The notes below the pieces were generated by a model. The model did not search any database. It was not told the DNA's origin and saw only the letters and a list, made by a program, of their open reading frames with translations. Below, piece after piece: positions 1-11,922 of a stretch of DNA of 37,082 nt (position 1 is the first letter of the stretch; every line of letters begins with the position of its first letter). Where the stretch lies: NCBI GenBank assembly GCA_015488565.1, contig WFNQ01000231.1, positions 1-37,082 on the forward strand, in the 5' to 3' direction. Origin of the DNA: Thiomicrorhabdus sp. GTDB taxonomy: Bacteria; Pseudomonadota; Gammaproteobacteria; Thiomicrospirales; Thiomicrospiraceae. Both the position numbers and the translations under genes were made by a program.

Positions 1-104
1 AAACAAAACGAATATCCAAAAACTTAAATCGATTTTTAACTCACGTTAAAACTCACTTAACAATTTAATCTTTAAACAACTTAGCTTTAAAAAGGGATAA
101 TAAA

Positions 105-1910
105 ATGAAAATTCTAAAACATTTAATCGCTTTTGCCTTCATATTAGGCATAAGCTCAATGGCATCGGCCGCTATACCGCCGCCGCCAGTAAACCAAAAC
201 TTGGGTATTCCTGATACCTCATTCTCAAACTTTGATCAAACGCTTTGTCAAGCCTGTCACTGGGCTTCCTATAGAGGCATTCCTACATTAAGTGGTGCAC
301 CTGTTAAAAAGGGATACAACCCAAACAGACACCATTTAGCAGTCGGCACTGAAATTGATGGAAAACCTGAGTTTCCTCCCTTTCGTGATTCTGATGGAGA
401 TGGTCAAAATGATACACATTTTAACTGCTTAAACTGTCATATCGTTGTTACTGAAGGTGTTGATATCGAAACAGCCATCCTTTCCGATGTTATTGTATAC
501 AACTACCGTAACTGCTTAAACTGCCACTCAAGAGACGCAGGACCGCTTACCGTTCACCATGCAACAGACCTAGCTCAAACAGGTTTTTGTTTCCGCTGTC
601 ACGGTGGATTAGTGCGTGGTATTGATGTTGATACCGTAACAGGTAAAAAGCCAGATCCAGATAATGTTGGTGAAACCGTTCCTGTAGACATACCAACCTA
701 CTCTCCCAGCATAATCACCCCTTGGCGTAGTGCCAAGCCGAATGGTGATGGTTCTCAAAAAAACCATGCTAACACATCACCTGGAAACTGTAATTTCTGT
801 CATAACACCGCAGAAGGTGCGCCAGACGGAGGCAACGGTGCAGGAACGATTCTTGGTGATGAAGGAGGTACGATGCAAGTTGTTAACCTACCTGATGGCA
901 GTACCTTCAATGCACCTATCTTGACGAACGCACAAAACCACCACAACACTGGTTTCTTTGAAGATAACAGATGTACATGGTGTCACATCATTGATGGTTC
1001 ATTTCAAACTGGTGGATATGCGATTCGTGCATGTCAGCGTTGTCATGATAGAACCACTCTTCACAACATTGAGTTTGATAAAGATGGTGATGGTGTAGTC
1101 GCTGGTGGCGAAGAAGCTTATTACGGTCACATTGGTAACCAAAAGAACTGTTGGGGTTGTCACGGTAACAACAAAAAAGTACAAGACGAAAATGGTGACT
1201 GGGTTGATGCCAGAGATACTCTAGGCGTTGATATCTACAGCCAAGGTGTTGTTGTTTCGGATGAAGACAATGCTCGAATATCTTCTGTGGTTAAAGCACT
1301 CATTCCAACTATTAATTCGTTAAGTACGCAAACTGTTTCTTCTGGTGTTGAAGCTACCATCACGATTGATGGAATGAACATGGTTAACTCCAGCTTAAGC
1401 AAAGAGTACGAATATGGTGAAGATGGAGCAATCCTTCTTGATGAAAATAGAAAACCTATTTCTCAAACGATTACAAATACCTGGACTTCAGAAGTTGTAG
1501 TAACGGATAAAAACAACAATAATGTTGTTATTGTTCCTGATTACCAAGATACCAATAAACTAGAGTTTACACTTCCAGCAACCTTGGCTCCTGGATTCTA
1601 TCAAGTTTCATTGAAAAAAGAAGGGCATGTTTCTAACCCGATTGGTCTGACAGTTACTCCTGCAATAGCAGTTCGACAAGCAGTTGTTTTTACTCCTTAT
1701 GGCGGTCTTGTAATTATGTCTGGATTAAACTTCATGGATGCTCTTCCTAATGGAATGACTTATAAACTTATTGATCAAGATGGAAACGCTCCAAAGCGCA
1801 TCTATCTATGGAGAGATGACTTTATTATTGCTCTATTTGACAACATCCCTGAAAGCGTCACTGTTGACAACCTTTACAATGAAAAAACAATACCTTTAAC
1901 ACGGTATTAA
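105..1910 (+). CDS. Secreted octahaem c-type cytochrome with C-terminal beta (IPT/TIG-like) region
   Basis: The protein has 601 residues, starting with a Sec signal peptide (basic MKILKH, hydrophobic stretch, ASAA cleavage site near residue 23). Eight CxxCH haem-binding motifs begin at C48, C108, C137, C162, C229, C290, C310 and C349. Outside these motifs there are ten histidines before residue 345 (H76, H77, H105, H151, H152, H221, H279, H280, H320, H342), enough for bis-His ligation of all eight haems; this suggests electron transfer rather than catalysis. Residues 95-103 and 325-336 are acidic DxDGDG loops, the second a full EF-hand-type loop. From about residue 400 there is no cysteine motif, and the sequence looks like two beta-sandwich repeats of IPT/TIG type. 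An AAGGG element precedes the ATG. No membrane anchor is seen after the signal peptide, so a periplasmic or extracellular site is inferred. The electron donor and acceptor are unknown. The next genes encode a prolyl isomerase, a PEP-CTERM protein and a smaller related cytochrome. Confidence 0.9.
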   Translation: MKILKHLIAFAFILGISSMASAAIPPPPVNQNLGIPDTSFSNFDQTLCQACHWASYRGIPTLSGAPVKKGYNPNRHHLAVGTEIDGKPEFPPFRDSDGDGQNDTHFNCLNCHIVVTEGVDIETAILSDVIVYNYRNCLNCHSRDAGPLTVHHATDLAQTGFCFRCHGGLVRGIDVDTVTGKKPDPDNVGETVPVDIPTYSPSIITPWRSAKPNGDGSQKNHANTSPGNCNFCHNTAEGAPDGGNGAGTILGDEGGTMQVVNLPDGSTFNAPILTNAQNHHNTGFFEDNRCTWCHIIDGSFQTGGYAIRACQRCHDRTTLHNIEFDKDGDGVVAGGEEAYYGHIGNQKNCWGCHGNNKKVQDENGDWVDARDTLGVDIYSQGVVVSDEDNARISSVVKALIPTINSLSTQTVSSGVEATITIDGMNMVNSSLSKEYEYGEDGAILLDENRKPISQTITNTWTSEVVVTDKNNNNVVIVPDYQDTNKLEFTLPATLAPGFYQVSLKKEGHVSNPIGLTVTPAIAVRQAVVFTPYGGLVIMSGLNFMDALPNGMTYKLIDQDGNAPKRIYLWRDDFIIALFDNIPESVTVDNLYNEKTIPLTRY

Positions 1911-1918
1911 TTAAAAAA

Positions 1919-1946
1919 ACAGATACGCACTAAACCACGTATCTGT
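1919..1946. repeat. Perfect 9-bp inverted repeat after the octahaem cytochrome
   Basis: The arms ACAGATACG (1919-1927) and CGTATCTGT (1938-1946) are separated by 10 bases. The hairpin starts 9 bases after the stop codon and is preceded by A7. It has no T-run on the plus strand, but the A-run would give a U-run on the minus strand. It probably acts as 3'-end protection together with the stronger terminator just downstream. Confidence 0.6.
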
Positions 1947-1953
1947 TCATATT

Positions 1954-1990
1954 AAAAAAGCGGAACTCACTCTGTGGCTTCCGCTTTTTT
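1954..1990 (+). terminator. Rho-independent terminator, bidirectional
   Basis: A perfect 12-bp stem is formed by AAAAAAGCGGAA (1954-1965) and TTCCGCTTTTTT (1979-1990), with a 13-base loop. It ends in T6 and can work on both strands. It separates the octahaem cytochrome from the prolyl isomerase gene. Confidence 0.85.
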
Positions 1991-2054
1991 AATACATAAA
2001 TTTTAGTAACAACCCAATGTGGTTATAAATATGATTAAAAAAGAGCTAAATATC

Positions 2055-3008
2055 ATGAAGCTATATAAAAAAACACTAGCAACAACCCTTATCATTGCCA
2101 GTACAGCATTCTCCATTCAATCAACAGCCTCTACCTCAAATACAAATACTCAAACAAAAGAGCAGCCCCCCTCTTCTAAAATTATGTTAGCCAAAGTCAA
2201 CGACCACCCCATTTACCTATACCAACTAGAATCACAAATCCAAGCTGAGCTCAAAAAATATCAAAAACTAACTTCTAAAAAACTCTCTTCAGAACTAAAA
2301 TCTAGAGCCAGAACTAAAATTTTACAGCAATACATTAATGCAGAGCTAATCCTTCAAGACAGCCAAAAACACCCTGTTAACAACATTGAAGAAAAAGTTA
2401 CACAATACATAGAAAAAGCAAAAGAAAACAACCTCCCTATTAAAGATGAAACCTCCATAAAGCGCCAGATTCACATTAATGAATACCTTAAAGCACACGA
2501 CTTAACCTCACCTCAACCATCAGAGGCCGATATTAAGGCCTTTTATGAACAAGGAAAAAAACAATTTATTTCCACCGAAGATAAAGTTCATGTTCAGCAT
2601 ATCTTTGTAACAAAAGAGAATAAAGAGCAAATAAACAAAGCAAAAAAATTACTTGAAAATGGACAATCTTTTGAAAACGTTGCAAAGGAGTATTCTGAAG
2701 ATGAAAACACCAAAGAGAAAAGCGGTGATTTAGGTTTTATTATCAAAGACTACATGCCAAAAGAATTTGAAAACATTGCTTTTACGATTCAAAAGGCAAC
2801 GCTCAGCGACATTATAGAAACAGAAGAAGGTTACCATATCCTAAAAGTACTTGAAGCCAAGCCTGCTGGAACCCCCATACCGTATGAAAAAATGAAGGAT
2901 TTTTTAGCTCGTGGACTCGCCTCAAAAATCAAGGAAGAAAAAATAAAAGCTCACCTAAAAAAATTACAAAATAACGCTAAAATTGAAATTTTTAACCTTC
3001 AAAAATAA
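2055..3008 (+). CDS. Secreted parvulin-type (PpiC/SurA-like) peptidyl-prolyl cis-trans isomerase
   Basis: The protein catalyses cis-trans isomerisation of proline peptide bonds and helps fold exported proteins. From the chosen start it has 317 residues: a signal peptide (MKLYKKT, hydrophobic core, STAS near residue 26), an alpha-helical SurA_N-like chaperone segment (about 40-160), and a parvulin domain (about 176-268) with the family features VQHIFV, SGDLGF, EFE..AF and GYHILKV. The open frame extends upstream to GTG 2019 and ATG 2031. ATG 2055 is preferred because the signal peptide begins there and AAGAG lies 9 bases before it. It is rich in Lys and Glu, with an AT-rich codon bias like its cytochrome neighbours. 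Its position between two multihaem cytochrome genes suggests a folding helper for these or for the PEP-CTERM protein; that role is inferred. It is much shorter than SurA (about 430 residues, two parvulin domains). Confidence 0.88.
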   Translation: MKLYKKTLATTLIIASTAFSIQSTASTSNTNTQTKEQPPSSKIMLAKVNDHPIYLYQLESQIQAELKKYQKLTSKKLSSELKSRARTKILQQYINAELILQDSQKHPVNNIEEKVTQYIEKAKENNLPIKDETSIKRQIHINEYLKAHDLTSPQPSEADIKAFYEQGKKQFISTEDKVHVQHIFVTKENKEQINKAKKLLENGQSFENVAKEYSEDENTKEKSGDLGFIIKDYMPKEFENIAFTIQKATLSDIIETEEGYHILKVLEAKPAGTPIPYEKMKDFLARGLASKIKEEKIKAHLKKLQNNAKIEIFNLQK

Positions 3009-3111
3009 CTAAGCATAAGCTAAAAATAGCGTTTTTACTTAATAAAAGGTATAATCCTGAGTTAAGTTTTTACAAGAAGCTTAATCTGTAAAATAAACAC
3101 AACGTCTGCTT

Positions 3112-3143
3112 GTTGATTTTTGAATACAAATTTAAAAATCAAC
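3112..3143. repeat. 10-bp perfect inverted repeat upstream of the PEP-CTERM gene
   Basis: The arms GTTGATTTTT (3112-3121) and AAAAATCAAC (3134-3143) flank a 12-base spacer. No T-run follows, so it is not a classical terminator. It could be a weak 3' end for the isomerase gene, an operator, or a leader hairpin of the PEP-CTERM gene 80 bases downstream. Confidence 0.5.
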
Positions 3144-3222
3144 TTAAGATTGCACTAGTTAATCTTTTTAAGTCCTTGGGGGAGGAGCTAGGTAGACACT
3201 CTCAAAACTGGAGTACTAAAAA

Positions 3223-3870
3223 ATGAATTACCAAAAACAACTTATTGCTACTGTGTTGCTAGCCATTGCAACGTCTTCAGCACAAGCACTTGAAACCACA
3301 ATTGACTTTGAAAATCAAACATCTACTGGAGTACTCAACAATGTGCCAAACTTAACAATAGGGGATGTTACCTTTGATGCGAGCGGTGGTGACTCTACTT
3401 TATTTATTGATAATTTAGGTAGCGATTTAGGTGGTGACTTCTCTGGCAACTATATAACAAACGGATTTTTAGGATTTTCAACATTAACTTTCTCATTTGC
3501 GACTCCTGTAAGCCAGTTTTCATTTAACCTTGGTAATAACCAAAATGATTGGGAACTAACCGCTTTTGATACTTCAGATATGACAATAGGCGACTCTTTA
3601 CTCATTAATAGAATCCCCCCAAATTCTTCTAACAATGGTGCACTATTTGGCATATCGTCAACTAATTATGATATATCTTACGCCACTTTAGTAATGGGTT
3701 CAGGACCTCCAAGCCCATTTCCTATAACAGATGAAATTGAGTTTGACAACCTTAAATACACAACGGCAGTCTCACCAGTCCCTGAACCTTCTACCTATGC
3801 TCTAATGTTAGGTGGACTAGGCATGGTTGCTTTTATGGCGTATCGTCGACGTAAAACAGAAAATTCTTAA
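3223..3870 (+). CDS. PEP-CTERM sorting-domain secreted protein
   Basis: The 215-residue protein has a signal peptide (MNYQKQLIATVLLAIATSS, cleavage after AQA near residue 22) and a Gly/Asn/Asp/Ser-rich beta-type body with almost no charge. It ends in the classic PEP-CTERM tripartite tail: VPEPSTYAL, a hydrophobic segment (LGGLGMVAFMAY) and the basic RRRK. In known systems this tail is cut by an exosortase (XrtA/EpsH family), releasing the protein into the exopolysaccharide or cell-surface layer. No exosortase is in the window. GGAG lies about 9 bases before ATG. The body is not assignable to a named enzyme; an adhesin or matrix role is inference. The gene stands alone between an inverted repeat and a terminator. 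Confidence 0.88.
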   Translation: MNYQKQLIATVLLAIATSSAQALETTIDFENQTSTGVLNNVPNLTIGDVTFDASGGDSTLFIDNLGSDLGGDFSGNYITNGFLGFSTLTFSFATPVSQFSFNLGNNQNDWELTAFDTSDMTIGDSLLINRIPPNSSNNGALFGISSTNYDISYATLVMGSGPPSPFPITDEIEFDNLKYTTAVSPVPEPSTYALMLGGLGMVAFMAYRRRKTENS

Positions 3871-3898
3871 TATTCAGATTGCATTATGTTAAGTAAAT

Positions 3899-3926
3899 AA
3901 AAAGGCAACATTGGTTGCCTTTTTTT
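3899..3926 (+). terminator. Rho-independent terminator after the PEP-CTERM gene
   Basis: AAAAGGCAAC (3900-3909), a 4-base loop ATTG, and GTTGCCTTTT (3914-3923) form a perfect 10-bp stem running into a T-tract. Confidence 0.88.
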
Positions 3927-4071
3927 ATGCCTAAAACTCACGGACAAAATAAAGTATAATACTATTCTCAAGAGTACTTCAATGATTTCTTAATAGTCTG
4001 CGTGTAATTAAGAACGACTGCTTCTAACCCAAACACATTAATAACACAATGTATAAAAAAGGACCTTATTT

Positions 4072-4623
4072 ATGAAACACCTTAAAAAGAGCTTATTTAT
4101 ACTCTATATACTTACCCTGGCAAGCATTACAACAACCACTCACAGTAGAGGAATGAAAATATTCGATGGTCCGCCTACCGCTCCCCAATGCCGTAACTGC
4201 CATTACGACTTAGAACGATTTCCCTTACTTGGGCTCTACTTAGGGTTAAGAAATCCAGATCGACACCATCTTTTAATCGGAACAACCATTCCCCCTAGAT
4301 CTCGCTCAAAGGCGCCCGATGCGATAGGCGCGACAAATGAAGGGGGACGTTATAACTGTTTTTCATGCCATTTAATGATGCCAGAAAAAGCCGCCCCCCT
4401 TGAAGAAAATTTTAACATTGTCGAGCCCTTTAGAGACTGTCTACAATGCCATCCTGCCTGGATTGTAACGGGACCACCGGGTGGAATGGGAGGCCGTCGT
4501 GGAAGTAGCACTGAAAGTGAAATAAGCAACGTACACATGACCAGCGAATCCACGCTATTTAACCAACGTCAATGTCGTGCTTGCCATACTGGTGGAATGG
4601 GTGGAGGTGGAATGGGTAGATGA
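4072..4623 (+). CDS. Small secreted tetrahaem c-type cytochrome
   Basis: The 183-residue protein has an N-terminal signal sequence (MKHLKKS followed by a hydrophobic stretch) and four CxxCH motifs starting at C40, C96, C123 and C168. The block from C40 to C168 parallels residues 48-166 of the octahaem cytochrome at 105-1910: both have CxxCH, then P(N/D)RHHL..GT, then (F/Y)NC..CH, then CL.CH, then VH(H/M) before a further CxxCH. Only three histidines outside haem motifs lie clearly in the mature part (H65, H66, H155), so the fourth haem may use methionine, a histidine of another subunit, or H24 if it is kept. The C-terminus is Gly/Met-rich (GGMGGGGMGR). AAGGA stands 8 bases before ATG. It is followed by a strong terminator and is probably its own transcript. 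An electron-transfer role is well supported; the partner is unknown. Confidence 0.87.
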   Translation: MKHLKKSLFILYILTLASITTTTHSRGMKIFDGPPTAPQCRNCHYDLERFPLLGLYLGLRNPDRHHLLIGTTIPPRSRSKAPDAIGATNEGGRYNCFSCHLMMPEKAAPLEENFNIVEPFRDCLQCHPAWIVTGPPGGMGGRRGSSTESEISNVHMTSESTLFNQRQCRACHTGGMGGGGMGR

Positions 4624-4670
4624 TAACCTTCTTCTACTTAATGCCAATCTTTACTCGCTCTTAGCTCAAA

Positions 4671-4708
4671 AATAAATTAAGCCCCTGAAAAAAGGGGCTT
4701 AATTTATT
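4671..4708. terminator. Strong bidirectional rho-independent terminator
   Basis: A perfect 16-bp stem runs from 4671-4686 to 4693-4708 around a 6-base loop, with core AAGCCCCT/AGGGGCTT and AT-rich flanks (AATAAATT/AATTTATT). It lies between the convergent tetrahaem cytochrome gene and the lipoprotein gene and can serve both. Confidence 0.88.
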
Positions 4709-4744
4709 AAAATATTTATTTGAAAATAAACATCAAGCTCTAAC

Positions 4745-4800
4745 CCCCTATTAGAAACACGAATTAGAGTGTAAGTAATTGACGGACTTTCTATTAGGGG
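4745..4800. repeat. Imperfect palindromic element related to the 33994 repeat
   Basis: The arms CCCCTATTAGAAA (4745-4757) and TTTCTATTAGGGG (4788-4800) pair with one mismatch around a 30-base loop. The stretch TAGAAACACGAAT (4752-4764) is identical to 34010-34022, inside the large palindrome upstream of a receiver-domain gene. Confidence 0.5.
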
Positions 4801-4818
4801 ATTAGGGCAATAAAAAAA

Positions 4819-5193
4819 TTACTGAGCACGATCAGCTTCAATTTTTTGAAACACATTTTTTAAGTCTTGTTCCAGCTTTACGGCTTCTTCTTTCGACATA
4901 TCTGAGTTTTCAGAGATTTTTGCAACCAACCCTTTTACTTCAGAATCCAGTTTTTCAGGTGGAATCCCTTCTGCAGAACTCAGAGCCTCTTTAATGGCCG
5001 TTTTTTGCTCAGGCGTTTGAACTCTTTCAATCGCTCCTTTTACTTTTTCGACTGTTTTAATCTCTTCCGTTTGAACTTCTGATGCGGTAGCCGCATCAGA
5101 AGCCACTTTATTATTCGACTCTTGCTCTGACTCACTACAGCCAGCTGAAAAAACCGTCATTACTGCAACCAAACTCATCCACTTCATATTCAT
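4819..5193 (-). CDS. Small putative lipoprotein, Glu/Lys/Ala-rich
   Basis: The 124-residue protein begins with MNMKWMSLVAVMTVFSAGC: a short positive region, a hydrophobic stretch and a lipobox-like SAGC with C19 as the likely lipidated residue. The -3 residue is Ser rather than the usual Leu, so the assignment is good but not perfect. The mature part is highly charged (many Glu, Lys, Gln, Ala) and likely alpha-helical or coiled-coil, with no recognised domain. AAAGAG lies 8 bases before the ATG at 5193 and decides the start; M3 is an alternative. It is not tightly coupled to priA, which is transcribed in the same direction upstream (103-base gap). The function is unknown. Confidence 0.72.
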   Translation of the reverse strand: MNMKWMSLVAVMTVFSAGCSESEQESNNKVASDAATASEVQTEEIKTVEKVKGAIERVQTPEQKTAIKEALSSAEGIPPEKLDSEVKGLVAKISENSDMSKEEAVKLEQDLKNVFQKIEADRAQ

Positions 5194-5296
5194 AATGTTT
5201 ACTCTTTATTCCATTAAAAAAAATAATATTAAATATTATTGCCCCCCTTTTAAATGGGTATTTTACCTTATTAAAAAGCGAGTCACCACATACGAT

Positions 5297-7585
5297 TTAC
5301 ATCATTTCTTGCGGGTCGATATCCATACTCCATCGTACCTTACGTGACAACGGACTTTTATAGATATAAGGCACCATTTCAGCCATTAATTGATGCAAGA
5401 CCTTTCGCTTAGTTGCTTGAATCAATAACTGAAAACGATAGCGCCCTTGGCGACGTAACATGGGGGCCGATACAGGCCCCCAAAACTCAATTTGGGCTTT
5501 ATTATCCTGCATTTTACTCAGCGTGTGGCTTATTTTTTGTAGATTTAATTCTAAGCCTGCTTTAAGGGAAAGCAAGAAGTCCATGGCATCTTGTGCATTA
5601 TTGGCTTCCGCTCGAATGAGGATTTGATAACAGAGGGGGGGTAAATTTGCCTCAATGCGCTCTTGTAAGGTTTTTTGTGCAAAGGCATCATACCCTTGCA
5701 TAATCAACTGGGTAAAAAGTGGGTGGTCAGGTTGATGGGTTTGAATCAGTACTTGACCTTTTTTTTCGGCTCGTCCTGCTCGTCCTGCCACTTGCATAAT
5801 AAGTTGCGCCATGCGCTCAGGCGCTCGGTAATCGGCACTGAATAGCCCTTGGTCAATGTCTAAAATGCCGACTAATGTGACATTGGGGAAGTGATGTCCT
5901 TTGGCCAGCATTTGTGTGCCTATTAAAATATCGGCTTCTCCGCGTTGCGCCTTGCTGGTTAATTCGGCCATTTGGCCTTTTAAACGCGTGGTATCGCGAT
6001 CAATTCTTAACACCGAGTGATTAGGAAACCAGTTTTGTATGGCTTCATGCAATCGCTCAGTGCCTTGGCCGACGTTAATAAACGCTTCTTGATGACCACA
6101 ACTTGGACAACATTTGGGTTCTGGTTGTTGTTCTCCACAGTGGTGACATTGTAAGTAGTGGTAATTTTTTCCTGAATGCAGTGTCATATTCGCATCGCAA
6201 CTTGGGCAGCTCGCTTGCCAACCACACTCATGGCACATTAAAATGGGCGCAAAGCCACGGCGATTTAAGAACAATAAAATTTGCCCCCCCTGCTCCAAAC
6301 TGGCTTCCATAGCCTTTTTTAAAAGGCGTGATACGCCTTCTTGAATTTTCTCCCCCCTTATATCCAACAATTTTATACTGGGTAACGTGGCATTGCCCGC
6401 ACGTTGTTTTAATTGCAGAAGGTGATAGCGCCCTTCATTGACGTTGTATAAACTCTCTAACGATGGGGTTGCAGACCCCAACACCACGGGAATACCCTCT
6501 TGATAAGCACGTTGCACCAAGACATCTCGCGCAGAGTAACGAAACCCCTCTTGTTGTTTATAAGAGAGATCGTGCTCTTCGTCAATAATACACAACCCTA
6601 AATTTTGAAACGGGGTAAACACCGCCGACCGTGTGCCAAGCAATACCTTTACCTGCCCTGTGCGAATTGAGTGCCAAGCACAATGACGCTCCGAATCATT
6701 TAAACCCGAATGCAAACAGGCGACTTGAATTTGCAGTTGCGCTTCAAATCGCGCCACCATTTGGGGGGTTAAGCCAATTTCGGGCACCAGCACCAGTACC
6801 TGTTTTCCTTGAGCAATTGCGGCCTCAATCATCCCAAGATAGACTTCGGTTTTACCACTGCCGGTAATGCCTTGCAGCAAAAAGGCTTCAAACAAGGCTG
6901 GCTGCTGCAAACTGCTTACCACTCGATCAACGGCCAGCTGCTGTTCTTCATTTAAACAGTGATTAGGGGGGGGGGAAAATTTCGATTGTCGAAAACAGCT
7001 CCCCTCTTTTTCTTCAATCCAACCCAGCTGAATCAATTTTTTGAGCGCAGGTCGCCAACCTTCAAGCGCACTGGATAGCTCTGTCGCACAGAGTGCGTTC
7101 TGCTCGGTTAAACGTGCCTGTACAAAAAACTCAAACACCGCATGTTGCCGAGAAGCATTTTTAGCCAAGCTATCAACTGAGGCGTGTTGCCCTAGCTCGG
7201 TCAACGACCAATAGGGTACGCCTGTTACACGCGCTGGTTCACCCTGCCTTAATCGTTTAGGCAGTACCGCAGCAATCACCTCACCAATCGGTTCATGATA
7301 ATATTGACTCGCCCAGTGAAACAATCTCATTTGAGCCTTGCTAAACAGTGGTTCGCTGTCAATAACTTCCTCAATAGGCTTAATTTTTGTGCTCTCAAAA
7401 TCCGAAGCATCGCTCAAGCCCATCACCAACCCCACTATTTTTTTAGTGCGAAACGGCACCCAAACACGACCGCCCACCACAGGGCGTTGCTCAGATTCAA
7501 TATAGCCGTAATCTAATGGCGATAAAAAAGGCCCGGGAACTGCGACGTTGACAATACATAACTGGGACAAAATAAATCCATTCAC
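5297..7585 (-). CDS. priA: Primosomal protein N' (PriA), replication-restart helicase
   Basis: PriA is the superfamily 2 3'-5' DNA helicase that binds stalled forks and reloads the replisome. Residues 10-100 match the PriA DNA-binding domain (VNVAVPGP..., RVWVPF, YYHEPIGEV..LP..LRQG). Walker A GITGSGKT is at 239-246, the DEEH box at 335-338, and SAT and LIGTQMLAKGHHFP helicase motifs follow. The zinc-binding insertion uses cysteines near 451, 454, 460, 463, 480, 483, 493 and 496. The length of 762 residues is slightly above E. coli PriA (732). The frame starts with GTG at 7585; no better ATG exists in frame close to the conserved N-terminus. The gene contains several C/G homopolymers, including a G10 tract (6966-6975) encoding PPP, and divergently faces dctQ. 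Confidence 0.96.
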   Translation of the reverse strand: MNGFILSQLCIVNVAVPGPFLSPLDYGYIESEQRPVVGGRVWVPFRTKKIVGLVMGLSDASDFESTKIKPIEEVIDSEPLFSKAQMRLFHWASQYYHEPIGEVIAAVLPKRLRQGEPARVTGVPYWSLTELGQHASVDSLAKNASRQHAVFEFFVQARLTEQNALCATELSSALEGWRPALKKLIQLGWIEEKEGSCFRQSKFSPPPNHCLNEEQQLAVDRVVSSLQQPALFEAFLLQGITGSGKTEVYLGMIEAAIAQGKQVLVLVPEIGLTPQMVARFEAQLQIQVACLHSGLNDSERHCAWHSIRTGQVKVLLGTRSAVFTPFQNLGLCIIDEEHDLSYKQQEGFRYSARDVLVQRAYQEGIPVVLGSATPSLESLYNVNEGRYHLLQLKQRAGNATLPSIKLLDIRGEKIQEGVSRLLKKAMEASLEQGGQILLFLNRRGFAPILMCHECGWQASCPSCDANMTLHSGKNYHYLQCHHCGEQQPEPKCCPSCGHQEAFINVGQGTERLHEAIQNWFPNHSVLRIDRDTTRLKGQMAELTSKAQRGEADILIGTQMLAKGHHFPNVTLVGILDIDQGLFSADYRAPERMAQLIMQVAGRAGRAEKKGQVLIQTHQPDHPLFTQLIMQGYDAFAQKTLQERIEANLPPLCYQILIRAEANNAQDAMDFLLSLKAGLELNLQKISHTLSKMQDNKAQIEFWGPVSAPMLRRQGRYRFQLLIQATKRKVLHQLMAEMVPYIYKSPLSRKVRWSMDIDPQEMM
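6966..6982 (-). repeat. G10 homopolymer with AAAATTT flank inside priA
   Basis: On the minus strand it reads AAATTTT followed by ten C. It encodes Lys-Phe-Ser-Pro-Pro-Pro of PriA. It is one of the AAATTT-C(n) elements described in the findings, and a length change would frameshift PriA. Confidence 0.7.
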
Positions 7586-7684: not shown

Positions 7685-8245
7685 ATGCCTTTCACAACGT
7701 TATTAAGCCATTTTATTCGCACTCAAAACCACCTACAAAACCAAATTGGTCATAGTATCGCATGGGCAAGCCTATTATTGGTCGGCATTACCGCACTGGT
7801 GGTTATGCTACGCTATGGCTTTGATACTGGCTCCATTGCATTGCAAGAAAGTATTATGTATGCCCATGCGTTTCTTTTTATGCTGGGCATGGCTTACACT
7901 TACCAGCAAGACAAGCACGTTCGTGTGGATGTATTTTACACGCATTATTCCATCAAAAAACGCGCTTGGGTCAATTTATTAGGCACGCTATTCATGACGT
8001 TGCCCACCATGGTTTTTATTCTTTGGGTAAGCTGGGACTACGTTGCCATTAGCTGGAAAATAGGCGAAACCTCTGCGGAATCAAACGGTATCGCTTATCT
8101 GTACCTGTTAAAAAGTTTAATTCTCGTTATGGCGGTATTGATGCTCTCTCAAGCACTCTCTGTCGCGGCACAATCTTGGTTAACCATTTCAACTAACGAA
8201 AATAACCTACCCGAAGAGAATGATCACCTTGAGGGCAAGCTCTAA
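7685..8245 (+). CDS. dctQ: TRAP transporter small membrane subunit (DctQ family)
   Basis: TRAP transporters take up dicarboxylates or other organic acids using an ion gradient. The 186-residue protein has the four-helix DctQ pattern (segments around 27-47, 57-75, 100-125 and 150-170) and family features: W followed by a long hydrophobic helix, RYGFDTGSIALQE near 37-49 and a conserved central D..VRVDV..Y (about 80-87). Its stop overlaps the ATG of dctM by one base (TAATG), so the two are translationally coupled. No substrate-binding protein gene (DctP) is in the window, so the substrate cannot be deduced. No clear Shine-Dalgarno precedes the ATG. Confidence 0.88.
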   Translation: MPFTTLLSHFIRTQNHLQNQIGHSIAWASLLLVGITALVVMLRYGFDTGSIALQESIMYAHAFLFMLGMAYTYQQDKHVRVDVFYTHYSIKKRAWVNLLGTLFMTLPTMVFILWVSWDYVAISWKIGETSAESNGIAYLYLLKSLILVMAVLMLSQALSVAAQSWLTISTNENNLPEENDHLEGKL

Positions 8246-9609
8246 TGGAATGGTTAGCCTTAGTTTTATTCGCCGTTATCTTTATCGCCTTATTAATTGG
8301 CTTTCCCGTTGCGCTTACCCTAGCAGGCACATCCCTATTATTTGCACTCATCGCCAATGCCTTTGGTGCATTCGACATGGCCTTTTTGCACAGCATACCC
8401 AGCCGAATTTTTGGCATAATGAGCAATGAAATATTGATTGCCGTACCGCTGTTTATTTTTATGGGCGTGATGCTCGAAAAATCTAAAATCGCCGAAAACC
8501 TACTGCACACCATGGACGAAGTCATGCGTGGCATTAAAGGTGGATTAGGCATTGCCGTAATTATTGTTGGCATGTTACTCGCCGCCAGCACGGGCATTGT
8601 GGGCGCGACCGTGGTTACAATGGGGTTATTGGCATTGCCCACCATGCTCAAACAAGGCTACTGCCCTAAAATCGCGAGTGGAACGATTTGTGCCTCGGGC
8701 ACGCTTGGACAAATTATCCCCCCCTCCATTGTGCTGATTTTGCTAGGTGATGTGCTCTCATCGTCTTATCAGCAAGCCCAATTGAATCAAGGTATTTTCT
8801 CGCCCGAAGCCCTCTCCGTTGGCGACCTATTTATTGGTGCGCTGCTGCCAGGAATGATTTTAGTGGTTCTGTACATGCTCTATATTTTTTATAAGGCCAT
8901 GACCCAACCCGATCTCATCCCCAATAATATTGGTGAACCCGTTGCGCCAGGCCTGGCTAAAAGAGTATTAACCAGTTTACTCCCCCCCTTGGCTCTGATT
9001 TTATTGGTACTCGGCTCTATTTTAGGCGGCTTTGCGACCCCTACCGAAGCCGCCTCATTAGGCGCATTAGGTGCTTTGCTGTTGGCAACCATAAATAAAC
9101 AACTCTCTTTTGCCACCTTAAATCACGTCATGCGTAACACCTTGCAAGTGACCAGTATGATCTTTTTAATTTTCATAGGCGCCGCTTTCTTTGCGCTGGT
9201 TTTTAAAGGCCTTGGCGGAGATGACCTCATCACAGAACTGCTTACCGACTTACCGGGCGGTGTATTTACCGCAATGCTCATCGTGATGGCACTCTTATTT
9301 ATTCTTGGCTTTTTCTTAGACTTTATTGAAATCACCTATGTGGTGGTTCCCGTTGTTGCCCCTGTACTATTAATGATGGGCGTTGACCCCATTTGGCTTG
9401 GTATTATGATTGCCATTAACTTACAAACGGCTTTTTTAACCCCCCCCTTTGGCTTTGCACTATTTTATTTAAAGGGTATCGCAAGCCACTTAAAAACCAC
9501 CGATTTATATAAAGGGGTCATCCCCTTTATTATGATTCAGCTCAGCGTACTGGTGCTCATTGCTATTTTTCCTGAACTGGTCACATGGCTACCTAGCTTA
9601 ATTTATTAG
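8245..9609 (+). CDS. dctM: TRAP transporter large permease subunit (DctM family)
   Basis: The 454-residue integral membrane protein has about 12 hydrophobic segments and carries the substrate/ion translocation path of a TRAP transporter. Family signatures are FPVALTLAGTSLLFAL near the N-terminus, the central ASGTLGQIIPPSIVLILLG, the PTEAASLGALGAL block and the C-terminal LQTAFLTPPFGFALFYLKG. It overlaps dctQ by one base. It contains C7, C7 and C8 tracts (8718-8724, 8982-8988, 9440-9447), each across a Pro-Pro pair in a conserved helix break. The gene order Q-M without P suggests that the binding protein is encoded elsewhere. Confidence 0.93.
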   Translation: MEWLALVLFAVIFIALLIGFPVALTLAGTSLLFALIANAFGAFDMAFLHSIPSRIFGIMSNEILIAVPLFIFMGVMLEKSKIAENLLHTMDEVMRGIKGGLGIAVIIVGMLLAASTGIVGATVVTMGLLALPTMLKQGYCPKIASGTICASGTLGQIIPPSIVLILLGDVLSSSYQQAQLNQGIFSPEALSVGDLFIGALLPGMILVVLYMLYIFYKAMTQPDLIPNNIGEPVAPGLAKRVLTSLLPPLALILLVLGSILGGFATPTEAASLGALGALLLATINKQLSFATLNHVMRNTLQVTSMIFLIFIGAAFFALVFKGLGGDDLITELLTDLPGGVFTAMLIVMALLFILGFFLDFIEITYVVVPVVAPVLLMMGVDPIWLGIMIAINLQTAFLTPPFGFALFYLKGIASHLKTTDLYKGVIPFIMIQLSVLVLIAIFPELVTWLPSLIY

Positions 9610-9750: not shown

Positions 9751-11922
9751 GTGACTCCCATTCATTTTAAACACCGCCTGCCCACGGCAGACTTTACTTG
9801 TTCACACCAACAAATTGCGGATCACAGCAATGATGGTTTGATCGTGCTGTCTGCAACATTAGAGCCTCTGTTAATCAACCAAATCGCTCGCCAATATCTT
9901 GGGGAAGCGGAGTTACCAAATGATATTTTTAAACGCCTACTGATTTACACTCAAAAACGGAAACATATTCAATTTAATTTAAAAGAGTGGGTTCAATCAA
10001 ACACCCCTATAATCCAAAATGCACCGATACAAACGGAACTACTTTGGATGAAAACGGAACAACAAAAATCCCTTATTCCAGTTATTTTTCAGCTATCCAA
10101 TATAAACAGTTCATCCCGCCAAACAATTAACACTCTCCTGCTCATTCAAGACCAATCCTCTAAAATTGAAGCTGAAGCCAAAGTCTGTCTGATGAAAACC
10201 AGTGATGCAGGGCAGTTTATTACCGATTCGCTTGGACTCATTACCGAACCGAATCCAGCGTTTATTCAACACACGCATCTGTCAGCACTCAAACTTAAAA
10301 AAATGACCTATATTGACTGGCTTAAAGCACAAGTTGTTTTTAAAGTACCATTTGACTTAGTCATGGAGTCACTATTAAAAATAGGAAACTGGAGTGGAGA
10401 AATACAATTAACCGTTCCTCAGAAAAAAGCCATGCCAGCCATCTTAACCCTCTCGATGCTGACCGATGAAAACCGCAATATAGAACATTTTGTTGGCGTC
10501 ATTCAAGACTTGTCTGAAATTCATGATGCGCACCATAAAATAGAACAGCTGGCTTATTATGACTCCTTAACTGGTCTGGCTAACCGTACTTTACTACACA
10601 ACCATCTTGAGCAGCTGTTAATCAAATACCAACAAAAACCCTGCTATTCAGCACTCATTTTGCTCGATTTAGACAACTTCAAAATAATAAATGATACTCT
10701 TGGCTATCCCGTAGGGGATGAGCTACTCATTTTAGTCGCTCAAAAACTGCAGTGCCTTGCCCACTCAAATGACGTAGTTATTCGAATGGAAGGGGATGAG
10801 TTTGCTCTGCTCTATCAAGACATCAGCCAAGATACCAGTGAAGCACTGACCCAAGCCCTTGGCCTAGCGTATAAAATACAAGATGCTCTGGATGACCGAT
10901 ATACTTTAGAAAACCGCTCTCTGCATTGCAGTGCCAGTGTGGGCGTTTATCTCTTTAGCAAACCGCCTCAAGAGGGCTATTCAGATGAACTGATTCGCTA
11001 TGCCAATATGGCCATGCATGAAGCCAAAAAATTAGGTGGAAACCAAGTTTATCTCTTTGAAGATCGATTGTGTAATCTTGCAAAACAACGACTGGAAATG
11101 CTACAAGCCTTAAACCATTCTGAACTGGATGATGAATTTCAACTCTACTTTCAGGCTCAAATTAATGCTCAAGGCCAAATTGTATCCGCAGAAACCCTCC
11201 TTCGCTGGTTTCATCCAACCTTGGGGCTTGTTCCCCCCAATGAATTTATTCCCGTCGCCGAAGAGGGACGACAAATCATCAAAATTGGACTTTGGGTGAT
11301 GCACAAAGCCTTTATCCAGGCCAAGGTCTGGCATAAAAAACATAAAAAATTACGTGTTGCCATTAATATTAGTCCCATTCAATTTCATGAACAAAGCTTT
11401 ATTGAGCTGGTTATTGGCCTCATTAAATTTACCCAAGTCAATCCAAATTACATTACCCTTGAACTCACCGAAGGTGTGCTCATTCGTAATACCACACTGG
11501 CCTTACAAAAAATACAGCACTTGGTTAGCTTAGGATTTCACATCTCAATTGATGACTTTGGTACAGGCTACTCCTCTTTAAGCTACTTACAAAAGCTACC
11601 CATCCACGAACTTAAAATTGATCGAAGCTTTATTCAACATATCCCAGACAATCAAGATGATGTCGCGATTGTGAATACCATCTTAAAACTCGCTGAAAAC
11701 AAGCAGCTTACGATTGTCGCTGAAGGCGTCGAAACCGAAAGACAAGCCAATTTCTTACGCCAGCAATCGGACTCTCTTCTCATACAAGGCTACTTCTTTA
11801 GTAAGCCTGTTCCCGCTGAGCAGTTTGAACAACAATTTTTAAATCCACCAGAGGCTTACCCTGAAAACAAACAAACGAATACCCTGTCTTCTCAAGCCCC
11901 AATATCCCTAACAACACATTAA
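9751..11922 (+). CDS. PAS-like/GGDEF/EAL c-di-GMP signalling protein
   Basis: The 723-residue protein has an N-terminal sensory part with two PAS-like segments (about 20-140 and 150-265), no membrane helix, a GGDEF domain (about 270-430) and an EAL domain (about 450-705). The GGDEF signature is EGDEF at 347-351, so its first glycine is glutamate and cyclase activity is doubtful. The EAL side looks intact: ETLLRW at 481-486 (ETL variant of EAL), NISPIQF, LELTEG, IDDFGTGYSSLSYL, KIDRSFI, AEGVE and QGYFFSKP. It is therefore likely a c-di-GMP phosphodiesterase with a regulatory GGDEF, in the cytoplasm. The start codon is GTG at 9751 with AAGAAG a few bases upstream; no closer ATG preserves the N-terminus. 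It is a single gene with a deaD promoter right after its stop. Confidence 0.9.
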   Translation: MTPIHFKHRLPTADFTCSHQQIADHSNDGLIVLSATLEPLLINQIARQYLGEAELPNDIFKRLLIYTQKRKHIQFNLKEWVQSNTPIIQNAPIQTELLWMKTEQQKSLIPVIFQLSNINSSSRQTINTLLLIQDQSSKIEAEAKVCLMKTSDAGQFITDSLGLITEPNPAFIQHTHLSALKLKKMTYIDWLKAQVVFKVPFDLVMESLLKIGNWSGEIQLTVPQKKAMPAILTLSMLTDENRNIEHFVGVIQDLSEIHDAHHKIEQLAYYDSLTGLANRTLLHNHLEQLLIKYQQKPCYSALILLDLDNFKIINDTLGYPVGDELLILVAQKLQCLAHSNDVVIRMEGDEFALLYQDISQDTSEALTQALGLAYKIQDALDDRYTLENRSLHCSASVGVYLFSKPPQEGYSDELIRYANMAMHEAKKLGGNQVYLFEDRLCNLAKQRLEMLQALNHSELDDEFQLYFQAQINAQGQIVSAETLLRWFHPTLGLVPPNEFIPVAEEGRQIIKIGLWVMHKAFIQAKVWHKKHKKLRVAINISPIQFHEQSFIELVIGLIKFTQVNPNYITLELTEGVLIRNTTLALQKIQHLVSLGFHISIDDFGTGYSSLSYLQKLPIHELKIDRSFIQHIPDNQDDVAIVNTILKLAENKQLTIVAEGVETERQANFLRQQSDSLLIQGYFFSKPVPAEQFEQQFLNPPEAYPENKQTNTLSSQAPISLTTH

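Follow-up and report, generated by a model that had tools for sequence, protein, structure and literature searches.

The described systems closest to the locus treated here include the multihaem c-type cytochromes that form extracellular wires. In OmcZ of Geobacter sulfurreducens (GSU2076), an octahaem protein, the haems are bound by histidines of the same subunit and a CX14CH loop lies at the filament interface, whereas OmcS and OmcE carry six or four haems and take one histidine from the neighbouring subunit (PMC9473688). OmcZ homologues have already been published as widespread in bacteria and archaea (PMC9473688), and in Geobacter, Methanoperedens and Borgs OmcZ belongs to a nanowire assembly cluster together with a protease, OzpA, and a prolyl isomerase (PMC11208441, PMC10874420). 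Here, a four-gene cassette encoding an OmcZ-type cytochrome is described at positions 105-4623 of a 37,082-nucleotide stretch of DNA from Thiomicrorhabdus sp., a sulfur-oxidizing bacterium (WFNQ01000231.1; hereafter the window). The stretch makes up an entire contig (C231 of genome G000) in a 1.79-Mb draft genome that is 79.87% complete.

A second described system comes from the same genus. Cathodic enrichment at a deep-sea vent has yielded a Thiomicrorhabdus with a 30-gene multihaem cluster (MHCR), a putative extracellular electron uptake (EEU) cluster that includes Ccm and CcsXAB genes and six-bladed propellers, with Cox I drawn in the pathway figure (PMC9751133). The metagenome-assembled genome (MAG) ISEC-1 is presented there as an aerobic autotroph having a cbb3 oxidase only (PMC9751133), and electrosynthetic CO2 fixation has been reported for a relative of the cathode-enriched organism, the cluster-bearing genomes being placed in one clade from vent fields (PMC13293256). 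With a probability of roughly 55%, we read the cassette as an OmcZ-type surface conduit that feeds an MHCR-type electron-uptake pathway in vent Thiomicrorhabdus, where the label "vent" follows PMC13293256, which places the cluster clade in such fields, and not a record of this particular genome.

The earlier note, made from the letters of the window alone, had proposed four consecutive genes for secreted proteins, and the open reading frames (ORFs), domains and CxxCH motifs agree with this description:

105..1910, + strand: octahaem cytochrome ORF, 601 aa, with 8 CxxCH motifs, Pfam haem domains and TIG
2055..3008, + strand: parvulin ORF, 317 aa, with an alternative GTG start possible upstream at 2019
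3223..3870, + strand: PEP-CTERM protein ORF, 215 aa
4072..4623, + strand: tetrahaem cytochrome ORF, 183 aa, with 4 CxxCH motifs

The N-termini of all four proteins have a basic start followed by a hydrophobic core, and are candidate signal peptides.

The octahaem cytochrome almost certainly belongs to the OmcZ family, as judged from its sequence. A six-sequence profile searched against the PDB with hmmsearch (E cut-off 0.01) matches only 8d9m (E 4.6e-28) and 7lq5 (E 7.2e-19), which are identified as OmcZ in PMC12954529 and in a passage of PMC11208441, respectively, and the same two entries rank top when the octahaem protein is searched against the PDB with phmmer. The alignment covers OmcZ residues 19-421 and has 90 identities in 250 aligned columns (36%). 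All 16 haem-ligating histidines, eight from the CxxCH motifs (with cysteines at C48, 108, 137, 162, 229, 290, 310 and 349) and eight distal ones (76, 77, 151, 152, 279, 280, 320 and 342), pair one to one with histidines of OmcZ, which holds a single extra histidine (146) over the same residues. The protein would thus bind eight bis-His haems with ligands from its own chain. The eight CxxCH motifs and eight further histidines are invariant in 29 of 29 octahaem relatives (the window, L014-L033 and L035-L041, with two sequences from L035 and the truncated L034 excluded), which argues that the haem pattern is not due to chance.

Beyond this identical 8+8 pattern, the window protein and OmcZ have in common an N-terminal AxPPPPVNQxLGIxDTxF signature and a C-terminal Ig region. 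They differ in the linker after haem 8, which is longer in the window protein, and in the CX14CH loop, in place of which the window protein has a canonical CxxCH (OmcZ A89 aligns with C108), as do all 29 aligned relatives. The loop is not taken as family-defining, because some of the Borg OmcZ proteins described in PMC11208441 also lack it. The earlier note had envisaged a surface or periplasmic bis-His conduit by analogy with OmcS and OmcE; a surface conduit of nanowire type is supported, but the analogy gives way to OmcZ, a relationship with OmcS/OmcE being rejected as none of P0001, P0004, A1 or A2 has a PDB sequence match to them.

The same evidence bears on whether the cytochromes could instead act in the periplasm, as a multihaem enzyme or an electron shuttle with no part in surface transfer. 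Such a role could draw on the NCBIfam scan of the cytochromes, which gives only weak, sub-cut-off matches to other multihaem families, but OmcZ is the sole PDB family below the E cut-off, all 16 ligands are kept and the alignment leaves no free axial haem site in the octahaem protein, so we regard this explanation as highly improbable. A known soluble periplasmic enzyme family, the competing identity raised in the earlier note, is not among the matches.

The C-terminal part of the octahaem protein (about 400-601) is a tandem Ig/IPT region, with Pfam TIG above its cut-off, for which AlphaFold gives a confident beta-domain model. The OmcZ precursor has a region of this kind, which it loses on maturation. 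The haem domain, modelled without haem, is mostly below a pLDDT of 50 (55 for the whole protein), and in a Foldseek search with the model only the Ig/IPT part is matched, to many Ig-like domains among the matches listed, which is uninformative. At two loci of other genomes, Pfam shows giant Ig/cadherin surface proteins that end in an OmcZ-like octahaem domain (L041:1826-8695, 2289 aa; L025:2623-7107, 1494 aa). The L041 protein additionally has a prolyl isomerase domain of the cyclophilin type, so that an isomerase and a nanowire-family cytochrome are naturally fused in one chain.

The tetrahaem cytochrome is a half OmcZ: in a profile comparison (probability 99.7%, E 2.8e-27) its match to the octahaem family spans haems 1-4, and it stops after haem 4 with a Gly/Arg/Met-rich tail. 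Pfam yields only sub-threshold multihaem matches, yet four CxxCH motifs are present. The VHH of the octahaem protein is VHM in the window tetrahaem, and of ten distinct tetrahaems, five (window, contig C115 of the same bin, G022, G028 and L018) have HM at the position of the second OmcZ HH pair and the other five HH, which makes one His/Met haem plausible in the HM proteins. With half of the fold, the tetrahaem protein might attach to a chain at one end and terminate it. It occurs together with the octahaem gene in all six Thiomicrorhabdus copies of the locus and at four (L018, L033, L036 and L037) of the 22 evaluable loci elsewhere; outside the genus, 25 octahaem genes were collected in 24 loci (L018-L041), those with at least 2 kb downstream being evaluable.

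The secreted parvulin has a PPIC rotamase domain (Pfam, E 5.8e-20) and SurA_N, and is a probable folding factor for the cytochrome. It is present in six of six cassettes and adjoins the octahaem gene in most of them, in keeping with the prolyl isomerase partner named in the earlier note and with the published clusters, in which an OmcZ homologue and a prolyl isomerase also occur together (PMC11208441, PMC10874420). These clusters, in which the gene order varies between species, differ in having a subtilase, which is lost in the window cassette. Outside the genus, a subtilase and then a parvulin directly follow the octahaem gene at 12 of the 22 evaluable loci, one locus (L035) has a frameshifted parvulin and no subtilase, and nine have neither; three of these subtilases are Peptidase_S8 proteins with an I9 propeptide.

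The PEP-CTERM protein is recognised by PF07589 (34.5 bits, cut-off 20.7; E 1.9e-8) and TIGR02595 (26.8 bits, cut-off 16), and its family (A4) is found, among the loci examined, only in the Thiomicrorhabdus cassettes. Exosortase has no match in the 79.87% complete genome of the window and is present in two of the five cassette genomes and in six of 32 genus genomes; a role of the PEP-CTERM protein as a tether is unproven. Compared with the OmcZ locus of Geobacter, the window adds the half-OmcZ tetrahaem and PEP-CTERM neighbours, and the composition of the cassette, with these partners and no OzpA, is new.

The cassette occurs in five of 58 relative genomes, all five among the 32 of the genus and none among the 26 others, the genus result being confirmed with a profile. 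The six locus copies in these five genomes (G000, G011, G016, G022 and G028) each contain all four genes, so that the co-occurrence on which the earlier note had let its proposal depend is found throughout, although the gene order differs and one of the five has two PEP-CTERM genes. In relatives, the cassette sits between a bioC-like gene and priA. The left edge of the window is the contig end, on which side the relatives carry the bioC-like gene; in G028 this flank is kept and a different gene lies on the far side.

The sixth copy comes from the genome bin of the window itself, where contig C115 (L005) holds a second version of the cassette, rearranged relative to window positions 1-5400. Its octahaem protein has 54% identity to that of the window, and the 165 bp at the end of the contig match the 3' end of the same priA at 97% DNA identity. 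Because of this shared priA 3' end, C115 is counted as a version of the locus, and its interpretation as a second, paralogous cassette in one genome was set aside. The likeliest explanation, from the sequences, is that C115 stems from a variant strain in which the cassette has been exchanged, and was binned together with the window, a tandem copy being less likely; the comparison of the two contigs suggests that closely related strains swap entire cassettes.

At a chromosomal site separate from the cassette (which lies at bioC-priA), the cassette genomes appear to have a cluster whose anatomy, in fragments, matches the MHCR cluster described for 'Ca. Thiomicrorhabdus electrophagus' ISEC-1 and SREC-4 of the same genus (PMC9751133, PMC13293256), with its multihaem cytochromes of up to 11 haems, maturation genes, propellers and COX1-like protein. 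In the genome of the window, contig C33 encodes a pentahaem cytochrome, a propeller protein and an ABC ATPase, C236 encodes COX1-like, CcsA-like and divergent ResB-like proteins and the end of a propeller, and C264 also holds a fragment of a multihaem, cytochrome-maturation and beta-propeller cluster; these fragments match the MHCR cluster by anatomy rather than by comparison with the ISEC-1 sequence. A PF14537 search of this genome gives one sub-threshold match, the C33 pentahaem. The rest of the electron path, which is missing from the window, therefore probably lies elsewhere in the genome, on these contigs. Larger stretches in G028 and G022 encode cytochromes of 5, 4, 3, 3, 3 and 1 haems, that of G028 also CcmF, propellers and a parvulin, and in G016 an 11-haem protein adjoins a COX1-like gene (Pfam was applied to the G028 and G016 proteins only). 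The parvulin of the G028 cluster is its own (L114:7973-8926), with 29% identity over 164 aa to that of the window, and its positional counterpart in G022, the ORF L110:11758-12729, looks similar.

The beta-propeller marker of C33 is found, among the 32 genus genomes, in exactly the five cassette genomes, an overlap with a chance of 5e-6 if the genomes were independent, which they are not. ResB (PF05140) was discarded as an MHCR marker, as it is present in 29 of the 32. The COX1-like probe was likewise discarded as evidence of a cluster outside the genus, where the neighbourhoods at L106-L109 are oxidase-assembly-like or mixed and lack an MHCR-like cytochrome array.

From its genes and their partners elsewhere in the genome, the cassette is probably part of an electron-exchange apparatus, and likely an extracellular conduit working with the multihaem pathway. 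The octahaem protein would be exported and fitted with eight bis-His c-haems, with the parvulin helping it to fold, and would then move electrons between the cell and a conductive mineral or an electrode, most likely as an OmcZ-like polymer or short stack. The tetrahaem protein may assist it, either by docking where the chain ends or by relaying electrons to the envelope, and the PEP-CTERM protein a companion at the surface or in the matrix. Electron flow would most likely be inward, to the MHCR-type pathway encoded elsewhere in the same genomes. The opposite direction, in which the cell, short of oxygen, discharges electrons from sulfur oxidation to minerals or partners, has precedents in Geobacter, where OmcZ serves outward transfer, and in Methanoperedens, which expresses OmcZ on anodes (PMC9473688, PMC10874420). 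However, the genus members described with an MHCR/EEU cluster were enriched on cathodes, not anodes (PMC9751133, PMC13293256), and ISEC-1, with its cbb3 oxidase as the only one given, is described as an aerobic autotroph, so outward flow appears quite unlikely.

Several observations weigh against a filamentous conduit tied to electron uptake. The cassette and the propeller marker may owe their co-occurrence to a single event, because the five genomes may be one clade. The COX1-like probe matches four of the 32 genus genomes, namely G000, G016, G028 and the cassette-free G029, which on this account has part of such a cluster without a cassette, and it misses the cassette genomes G011 and G022, which are drafts; outside the genus it matches eight of 14 octahaem genomes, in which the four neighbourhoods opened are not MHCR-like. 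On the side of the filament, the CX14CH of the Geobacter interface is replaced by a plain CxxCH, and the model of the haem domain is too poor for an interface to be inspected. The strongest point is the missing OzpA. An OzpA-type subtilase stands next to the octahaem gene in none of the six Thiomicrorhabdus cassettes, and four of the five cassette genomes, including that of the window, have no OzpA-like match at E 1e-10, the exception being a 916-codon frame on a separate contig of G016, while Geobacter deficient in OzpA forms no OmcZ nanowires (PMC12307469).

It follows that the octahaem protein might remain uncleaved and retain its Ig/IPT domains, acting as a single carrier at the surface (or in the periplasm) and forming no filament, with the loss of ozpA marking the change. 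This would fit the need for OzpA in Geobacter filaments (PMC12307469), the lack of an OzpA gene between octahaem and parvulin in six of six cassettes and the C-terminal region, which is kept in all six copies; nine of the 22 other evaluable octahaem genes also stand alone, with no protease, and the L041 and L025 fusions to large Ig/cadherin proteins need not involve filaments. Another protease could, however, make the cut, as the genome of the window encodes two other S8 proteins (neither OzpA-like at E 1e-10), and every ligand, with the chain geometry that it implies, is kept. We therefore consider an uncleaved, single carrier somewhat unlikely, and prefer the OmcZ-type surface conduit.

A more specific version of this preferred reading, rather doubtful as a whole, would have OmcZ-type wires as the outermost part of the uptake chain, maturing without OzpA, and the half OmcZ, with one His/Met haem in some species, ending the wire or coupling it to the envelope. 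If true, an aerobic autotroph would be using, in the inward direction, a nanowire that has a terminator or adapter subunit of its own. Enrichments from hydrothermal-vent samples have established electrosynthetic growth of Thiomicrorhabdus, which is attributed to a multihaem cluster; in passages of PMC9751133 and PMC13293256 no extracellular wire is named, and these passages and word searches of the two papers show none of OmcZ, octaheme and nanowire. A nanowire-family cytochrome that occurs within the genus only in marker-bearing genomes is thus a specific protein to consider for the outermost step. OmcZ relatives that naturally lack OzpA also make it possible to ask directly if cleavage is a general requirement, and the half-OmcZ protein might be a subunit devoted to the end of a cytochrome filament. 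The literature matches listed include no paper that treats OmcZ in Thiomicrorhabdus, which is weak evidence of novelty, as supplements and most subscription papers fall outside the search; only a review mentions both, in unrelated passages.

The cassette is followed in the window by these genes:

4819..5193, - strand: gene for a small, lipoprotein-like product with Cys, convergent with the cassette
5297..7585, - strand: a gene that we take, by resemblance, to be priA, which flanks the cassette site on the chromosome and is conserved there
7685-8245 and 8245-9609: two-gene TRAP-type transporter by resemblance, beside priA
9751-11922: PAS/GGDEF/EAL-like signalling protein by resemblance

The small lipoprotein-like gene neighbours the cassette in five of six locus copies and has no Pfam family above its cut-off; it appears to be a conserved neighbour, to which no role in the system is assigned. 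It is doubtful that the four cassette genes form a single operon, because visual inspection shows hairpins with T runs behind them between genes of the cassette, near 1955-1991 and 3899-3924. An automatic terminator and promoter scan of the locus performs no better than on shuffled sequences, and a sigma-54 scan is likewise at shuffle level. Rfam has no family above threshold in the first 7.6 kb of the window or in five related loci, and therefore no known riboswitch upstream of the octahaem gene. A G-rich leader element (CCCA..GGGGA.GG), also without an Rfam match, lies upstream of the octahaem gene in G022, G016 and G011 (L010, L012 and L013), and a comparable G-rich stretch can be seen by eye before the PEP-CTERM gene, at window positions 3170-3190.

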